From Opitutus sp. (GTDB lineage Bacteria > Verrucomicrobiota > Verrucomicrobiia > Opitutales > Opitutaceae): a stretch of DNA of 64,000 bases. Below are positions 5,709 through 8,834 of the stretch, piece by piece (position 1 is the first letter of the stretch; the number at the start of each line of letters is the position of its first letter). Below the pieces are notes generated by a model. It searched no databases and was not told the origin of the DNA. It was given only the letters and a program-made list of their open reading frames with translations. The DNA is taken from positions 1,488,001 through 1,552,000 of the forward strand of contig JANPZY010000001.1 of NCBI GenBank assembly GCA_024707325.1. The letters run 5' to 3'. The position numbers and the translations under genes are program-made.

Positions 5709-5884
5709 TGCGGCATGAGTTGGGACTCACTGCGGACCGGGTCGGACCAAGGTCCGCACCCGGTCGAGCCCATGTGCGGACACGGTCGCGACAAGGTGCG
5801 GCCACGGTCGAGCCGATGTGCGGACACGGTCGCGACGAGGTGGGGATCGTGTCGGGACAAAGTGCGGACCGGGTCGCGGCCTTG
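5709..5884 (-). repeat. 22-bp degenerate tandem array, locus 1 (8 units)
   Basis: Eight consecutive 22-nt units, e.g. TGCGGACACGGTCGCGACAAGG and TGCGGACCGGGTCGCGGCCTTG; reverse complement of the orientation seen at the other loci. Confidence 0.95.
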
Positions 5885-8354: not shown

Positions 8355-8375
8355 AAAGTCCGTAATACGGACTTT
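8355..8375. repeat. 21-bp perfect palindrome, copy 1 (AAAGTCCGTAATACGGACTTT)
   Basis: 10-bp arms around a central A; ends 1 nt before the ATG at 8377. Confidence 0.95.
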
Positions 8376-8376
8376 C

Positions 8377-8760
8377 ATGAGCGACTATTTGCATCCGGAC
8401 CTGCGGTTGCTGGCGGCGCTGGCGGAAGTGTTGGAGGTGTCGGCGCGCGAACTTTCGAAGAGGGCGCAGCAACACTATCATGCACGCACGCGGAAAAAAC
8501 GGGGCGGCACGCTGCGCCCGGGCTACGATACGCCGTTGTGGCAGGCGCTCGCGGCAGCCGTGCGTCCGCATCTGGCCAAGCGCGGAACGCGAGCTCTGCT
8601 CGCACGCGAACTGGGTGTGCATGTTTCGCGCGTCACAGAATACTTCGTCAAAGGGACCGCGATGCCGGACGCCGAACGCGCGTTGATCCTGATGCTTTGG
8701 CTCGCAAGACGTCGCGATACCAAGCCCTCACCGGCACCCCGTCCCACCCAAAGTCCGTAA
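8377..8760 (+). CDS. Small HTH-like putative DNA-binding protein
   Basis: 128 codons; C-terminal HTH-like segment KRGTRALLARELGVHVSRVTEYFVKGTAMPDAERALILMLWL; enclosed by palindromes. Confidence 0.7.
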   Translation: MSDYLHPDLRLLAALAEVLEVSARELSKRAQQHYHARTRKKRGGTLRPGYDTPLWQALAAAVRPHLAKRGTRALLARELGVHVSRVTEYFVKGTAMPDAERALILMLWLARRRDTKPSPAPRPTQSP

Positions 8761-8770
8761 TACGGACTTT
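8750..8770. repeat. 21-bp perfect palindrome, copy 2 (CCC-flanked, 27 bp in total)
   Basis: CCCAAAGTCCGTAATACGGACTTTGGG (8747-8773); contains the TAA stop of the HTH ORF (8758-8760). Confidence 0.95.
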
Positions 8771-8813
8771 GGGATTTAGCGATTTCCCTCGGGAGAAAGG
8801 GGATCGTCGGAGG

Positions 8814-8834
8814 AAAGTCCGTATTACGGACTTT
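8814..8834. repeat. 21-bp perfect palindrome, copy 3 (opposite centre, T)
   Basis: AAAGTCCGTATTACGGACTTT: same arms, central base T, so inverted relative to copies 1 and 2. Confidence 0.95.

Follow-up and report, generated by a model that had tools for sequence, protein, structure and literature searches.

A probable REP-like palindrome family with a predicted XRE-type partner protein in an Opitutus genome

The analysis of a 64,000-nucleotide stretch of an Opitutus sp. genome (contig JANPZY010000001.1, positions 1,488,001–1,552,000; hereafter the window) revealed a 480-bp cassette in which a small helix-turn-helix (HTH) gene is associated with three copies of a 21-bp palindrome. These palindromes probably make up a REP-like repeat family whose partner is a co-evolving XRE-type binding protein rather than a RAYT transposase. 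The main fact is the presence of 29 dispersed copies throughout the genome, which lay beyond the reach of an earlier sequence-only reading of the window.

The cassette (8355–8834, forward strand) is located between recD2 and HAD and is missing from this junction in relatives. Palindrome copy 1 (8355–8375, A centre, AAAGTCCGTAATACGGACTTT) overlaps the 5′ leader of the HTH gene (8377–8760, forward strand), with one base between it and the ATG at 8377. The TAA stop codon (8758–8760) lies inside copy 2, whose core (8750–8770, A centre) is an exact AAAGTCCGTAATACGGACTTT and which extends to a perfect 27-bp palindrome (8747–8773) bounded by CCC and GGG. Copy 3 (8814–8834, AAAGTCCGTATTACGGACTTT) has a T centre; it and copy 2 are paired in inverted order with a spacing of 64 bp. 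The sequence-only reading had placed the three copies, the inverted centre of the third, the ATG and the stop codon at exactly these positions, but its length of 128 aa needs correction, since the coding part (8377–8757) encodes 127 residues. No other match with up to three mismatches was present in the window, and none was expected from shuffled sequence. Elsewhere in the window, a 22-bp unit (TGCGGACACGGTCGCGACAAGG-like; 5731–5884) is repeated seven times head to tail beside a large sensor-kinase-like ORF.

The HTH-like character proposed for the product was borne out by a match to Pfam HTH_3 at residues 71–105 (E = 1.9e-5; 25 bits against a gathering score of 23). Searches of NCBIfam, PHROGs and PADLOC yielded nothing informative, and PADLOC gave no assignment to an anti-phage defence family. 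An AlphaFold2 model built from 47 family members (mean pLDDT 79.6) exhibited a long N-terminal helix together with a helical HTH domain, and a fold search matched XRE, HigA, P22 C2, SinR and lambda repressor domains, all weakly and none with E < 0.001. From the HTH_3 match, the helices at residues 71–79 and 83–92, and the covariation described below, the HTH region was assigned to residues 71–96 (8587–8664, forward strand), with the recognition helix at approximately residues 83–92. The HTH_3 match, the model, the fold search and the homologues identify the 127-aa protein as a predicted lambda-repressor/XRE-type HTH. The best homologues across the family showed 41–54% identity, and dN/dS was 0–0.21 between close orthologues of other loci; this protein-level conservation and the low dN/dS show the HTH family to be real coding sequence. 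This genome carries four paralogues, and homologues were found in 16 of 56 relatives, all within the same family. A scan of genome contigs gave 80 HTH loci, some of them from the same genomes, all in Opitutae or Verrucomicrobia MAGs (one labelled Akkermansiaceae). The overall sample comprised one genome per species and incomplete MAGs.

The 21-bp palindrome was absent from all 56 relatives searched. A lack of palindromes near homologues, which would have spoken against the sequence-only reading, was not observed: many homologues adjoin palindromes of the same design with other arms. We counted odd palindromes (TA[A/T]TA centre, arms of 7 bp or more) no further than 400 bp from the HTH gene at 110 homologue loci, from which identical repeats of one stretch had been removed by sequence and which include some genomes under two handles. 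Such palindromes adjoined 59 of the 110 homologues (upstream 45, downstream 49, both sides 35), whereas the distal parts of the same loci contained 2 in 436 kb; approximately half of the homologues had no perfect palindrome within 400 bp. The arm types were GTCACG, GTCACC, GTCACT, GTCAAC, GTAACG, GTCATC, TTCACG, TTCATC, GAACCG and AGTCCG. The generic pattern occurred in 22 of 37 genomes of the family and in none of 20 genomes of other families in the order, with reversed controls near zero, and at least six copies were present in 12 of the 17 family genomes with an HTH homologue and in 0 of the 20 without one (P = 3e-6). At L038, L041, L047 and L148, the outer arms were copy-specific yet perfectly complementary out to 21–24 bp. 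Arms of this length exceed the needs of protein binding, and may have arisen by extension through template switching or by insertion into existing hairpins.

Alignment of the recognition-helix consensus, L[AG]RxLGLPRQRVHEFL, against the arm bases revealed a regular correspondence at the 59 loci. At helix position 9, R accompanied G1 at 50 of the 52 G1 sites and P accompanied T1 at 5 of 6; position 14 was D/E with C5, A with A5 and L/M with T5; position 8 was P with C5, D with A5 and S/T with T5; and at position 13, H accompanied C3 and N/Q accompanied A3. The modules combine, as TTCATC sites pair with the helix SPQRVHLC (P at 9, L at 14). The signal persisted in 34 representatives below 62% identity, a selection that removes relatedness in part, and among 666 column-base pairs tested the strongest lay in or beside the recognition helix, with moderate covariation also in some N-terminal columns. 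Two specificities occurred at one syntenic locus, GAACCG in this genome (L025) versus TTCACG in the same-genus genome G001 (L038). A held-out prediction of TCAT-type sites from helix sequence was followed by three perfect copies in G009 and failed in G026, which had one imperfect match; G021 and G027 each contained a single perfect TCAT-type copy that was not predicted. These data constitute strong computational evidence that each HTH protein would read its own palindrome, and this predicted recognition is the best supported of our claims.

In the whole genome (4.04 Mb, 4 contigs), 29 exact copies of AAAGTCCGTA[A/T]TACGGACTTT and one further copy with two mismatches were detected, including nine adjacent pairs spaced 45–181 bp apart, whose centre bases were opposite in six and the same in three. 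Approximately 24 of the 29 copies were extragenic, compared with about 9% intergenic DNA in the window (binomial P ~3e-21); this count used a simple home-made dicodon gene caller, and the five genic calls include some errors of the caller, the copy at 8355 being scored genic only because the caller extended recD2. A real genic pair preserves the reading frame of an ATP-dependent DNA ligase (L007), where it separates the N-terminal domain from the catalytic one. There, at L007:3001–3066, the pair inserts the linker KSVIRTLDHSPLSNSKSVLRTL; about 43 residues are missing at this position from the orthologues of G004, G006 and G012, and the orthologue of G001 has a different linker without palindromes. 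A palindrome type of its own, GAACCGTAATACGGTTC, belongs to the paralogue L025 and has seven exact copies in this genome. Other TA[A/T]TA palindromes, with GTMAM arms, account for fifteen more copies, probably belonging to paralogues L026–L028. The palindrome flanks in L010, L011, L014 and L019 have short repeats in common. A second dispersed repeat, GGTGGAGCCCGGCGTCCCCGCCGGGCTTTTT, with a hairpin and T-run, was observed at L005, L013, L017 and L018 (e.g., L013:2935), near palindromes at several loci, and looks from its sequence like a repeated terminator.

The recD2 and HAD genes are neighbours in many relatives, and comparison of their junction confirmed the existence of the empty orthologous sites that the sequence-only reading had asked about. 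The gap was 633 bp here and 153 bp in G001, and the gaps of G006 (163 bp), G017 (193 bp), G007 (175 bp), G005 (140 bp) and G019 (72 bp), like that of G001, contained no HTH gene or palindrome; in G023, G018, G024, G009 and G016 the gap was 419–734 bp with other content. The difference of 480 bp between this genome and G001 matches the length of 8355–8834, but sequence divergence at the empty junctions prevents the join from being placed to the base. The cassette was therefore gained in this lineage. In the close relatives G059, G060 and G061 (about 88–98% identity in aligned stretches), most sites were kept in place, and together with the pair G057 and G058 these genomes gave 14 orthologous site groups. 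Turnover was also evident among close relatives: arrays of 77–98-bp units with one palindrome each differed in unit number, G060 had one extra 45-bp palindrome copy, one site had decayed, and the site of L162 was missing in G060 and G061. A 61-bp palindrome-bearing stretch was present in L111 and not in the 96%-identical L112, reflecting an insertion or a deletion. Cores varied less than flanks (14/408 versus 227/2653, P = 1.5e-4), in a test partly biased in that most orthologous sites were picked by exact match. A stronger claim of overwhelming purifying selection on cores (4/324) was weakened to 14/408 because orthologues not chosen by exact match varied, with 1–2 mismatches and one decayed site.

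The specificity match between protein and palindrome, the extragenic bias, and the lineage gain of the cassette and some sites are shown or strongly supported, and on these we base the following model. The window would contain the source locus of a system of REP-like repeats, and the small XRE/lambda-repressor-type protein encoded there would bind the odd 17–21-bp palindrome around its own gene, probably as a dimer. Dimeric binding and autoregulation are suggested by the symmetry of the sites, the XRE fold and the sites located 11–31 bp ahead of the start codon. Copy 1, next to the ATG, would make the HTH gene autoregulated; position and helix/arm covariation both favour a predicted palindromic operator at its own promoter. 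At dispersed sites, the protein might act as a repressor, roadblock or bridging protein. New palindromes may arise when short stretches that include existing ones are copied, through slippage or template switching at hairpins, or alternatively by an enzyme acting in trans, neither route invoking catalysis by the HTH protein. Host processes on hairpin-forming repeats, or a trans-acting enzyme, would be the simplest means of spread because the protein has no recognizable catalytic domain. A broader proposal, possible rather than probable, is that protein and palindromes make up a two-part genome inhabitant, in which dispersed palindromes are replicated and maintained by a small non-catalytic DNA-binding protein, or on its behalf, and in which protein and palindrome have repeatedly changed specificity together via a residue-base code in the recognition helix.

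We also considered an ordinary autoregulated transcription factor, with the palindromes as operators and the dispersed copies marking a host regulon, which is unlikely. The XRE/Cro-like fold of the protein, the palindrome centre 11–31 bp 5′ of the start codon in several homologues, the orthologous sites kept between genomes of 93–98% identity and the purifying selection on the HTH gene agree with this explanation, but the dispersed sites exhibited no promoter bias, their intergenic positions comprising 12 tandem, 7 convergent and 5 divergent arrangements. In contrast to degenerate operators, the 21-bp sites were identical in 29 of 30 cases, and palindromes also occurred 3′ of the HTH gene and within coding sequence. 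The adjoining genes were functionally mixed, and a neighbour strongly similar to that of the G059–G061 sites was found at only 1 of 18 loci of this genome. With hardly any target genes in common between distant lineages, a conserved regulon is not supported, and we rejected it. Far less probable still is a compact element that its own protein mobilizes, the palindromes serving as its ends. The gain of the ~480-bp cassette at recD2-HAD and the 35 homologues flanked on both sides fit such an element; however, many homologues are syntenic between species and vertically inherited at fixed places, and the orientation of the flanking palindromes varies. No target-site duplication was evident by eye at the cassette, where the empty site is too diverged for a base-exact test. 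The protein consists of an HTH fold and a helical N-terminus, with no catalytic fold or transposase family match in Pfam, NCBIfam, PHROGs, the model or the fold search. The earlier proposals, an autoregulated DNA-binding protein or a mobile or selfish cassette, are thus partly supported: recognition of the palindrome by the protein, common to the two, is strongly supported by the adjoining palindromes and covariation, and there was no sign of a recombinase or transposase. A phage, plasmid or viral origin was rejected, as no relatives were found among phages, plasmids and viral contigs.

There is similarly little chance that the palindromes are RNA or single-strand hairpins (terminators or REP-type) and the HTH gene one of many neighbours. 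Covariation of the inner arms with the recognition helix is not expected of a passenger gene, although the palindromes do form stable stem-loops and the arms at homologue loci reach 24 bp with copy-specific, perfectly complementary outer parts. Complementarity in the outer extension of the palindromes of this genome was not significant (P ~0.05 at best), and selection on the outer stem was rejected on this ground. Comparison with known RNA families gave just two sub-threshold matches, far under gathering scores. The sole Y1-type transposase gene found in this genome (Y1_Tnp) had no TA[A/T]TA palindrome in its 3.3-kb locus, and a RAYT as partner was rejected.

We favour the REP-like family with an XRE-type partner, and no description of such a system was found in the open-licence literature, preprints excluded, where it may bear another name. 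REP-type repeats are usually tied to RAYT transposases. The pairing of similar repeats with a repressor-like protein would, if true, undo this association, and one would have to ask how repeats can spread when no enzyme is apparent. With its dozens of protein-palindrome pairs, the family also provides natural material for working out a one-domain DNA recognition code, and how a protein with tens of genomic sites can change its specificity becomes testable. The dispersed copies behave like REPs, being extragenic, lineage-specific, paired and sometimes within genes, with no targets common to the lineages. The likeness to REP/REPIN-RAYT systems, as described in PMC3116915, PMC3733652 and PMC8266576, extends to short extragenic palindromes in tens of copies, single or in close pairs, to a lineage-specific repeat type, to a gene flanked by its own repeats, and to occasional in-frame insertion in DNA-repair genes; tens of near-identical, mostly extragenic copies, which define REP/RAYT repeats, were found here. 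PMC3733652 reports REPs in DNA ligase and uvrA of Opitutus terrae, and DNA ligase is possibly a recurrent insertion target, there and here. By the features tested, the palindromes are nevertheless not members of the REP-RAYT family: the partner is a 127-aa HTH protein instead of an HUH/Y1 transposase, and the palindromes are perfect and odd, with a fixed TA[A/T]TA centre and without the GTAG or CGTC ends given in PMC3733652. CGTC-tagged REPs are likewise palindromic repeats reported without a dedicated transposase, but they carry the CGTC tag, and the passages of PMC3733652 consulted report no cognate binding protein for them. XRE/lambda-repressor autoregulators share the fold, the odd palindromic site of ~17–21 bp and its position at the gene start, whereas the system here has dozens of invariant genome-wide copies, also 3′ of the gene and inside genes, and no common target gene set. 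Mycobacteriophage stoperators (PMC9283540, PMC6550527) resemble it in that one repressor has many dispersed genomic sites and immunity specificities diverge between relatives. A search for phage relatives of the HTH system found none, and stoperators involve phage genomes, asymmetric sites and a two-domain monomer, in contrast to the bacterial chromosomes and symmetric sites described here.
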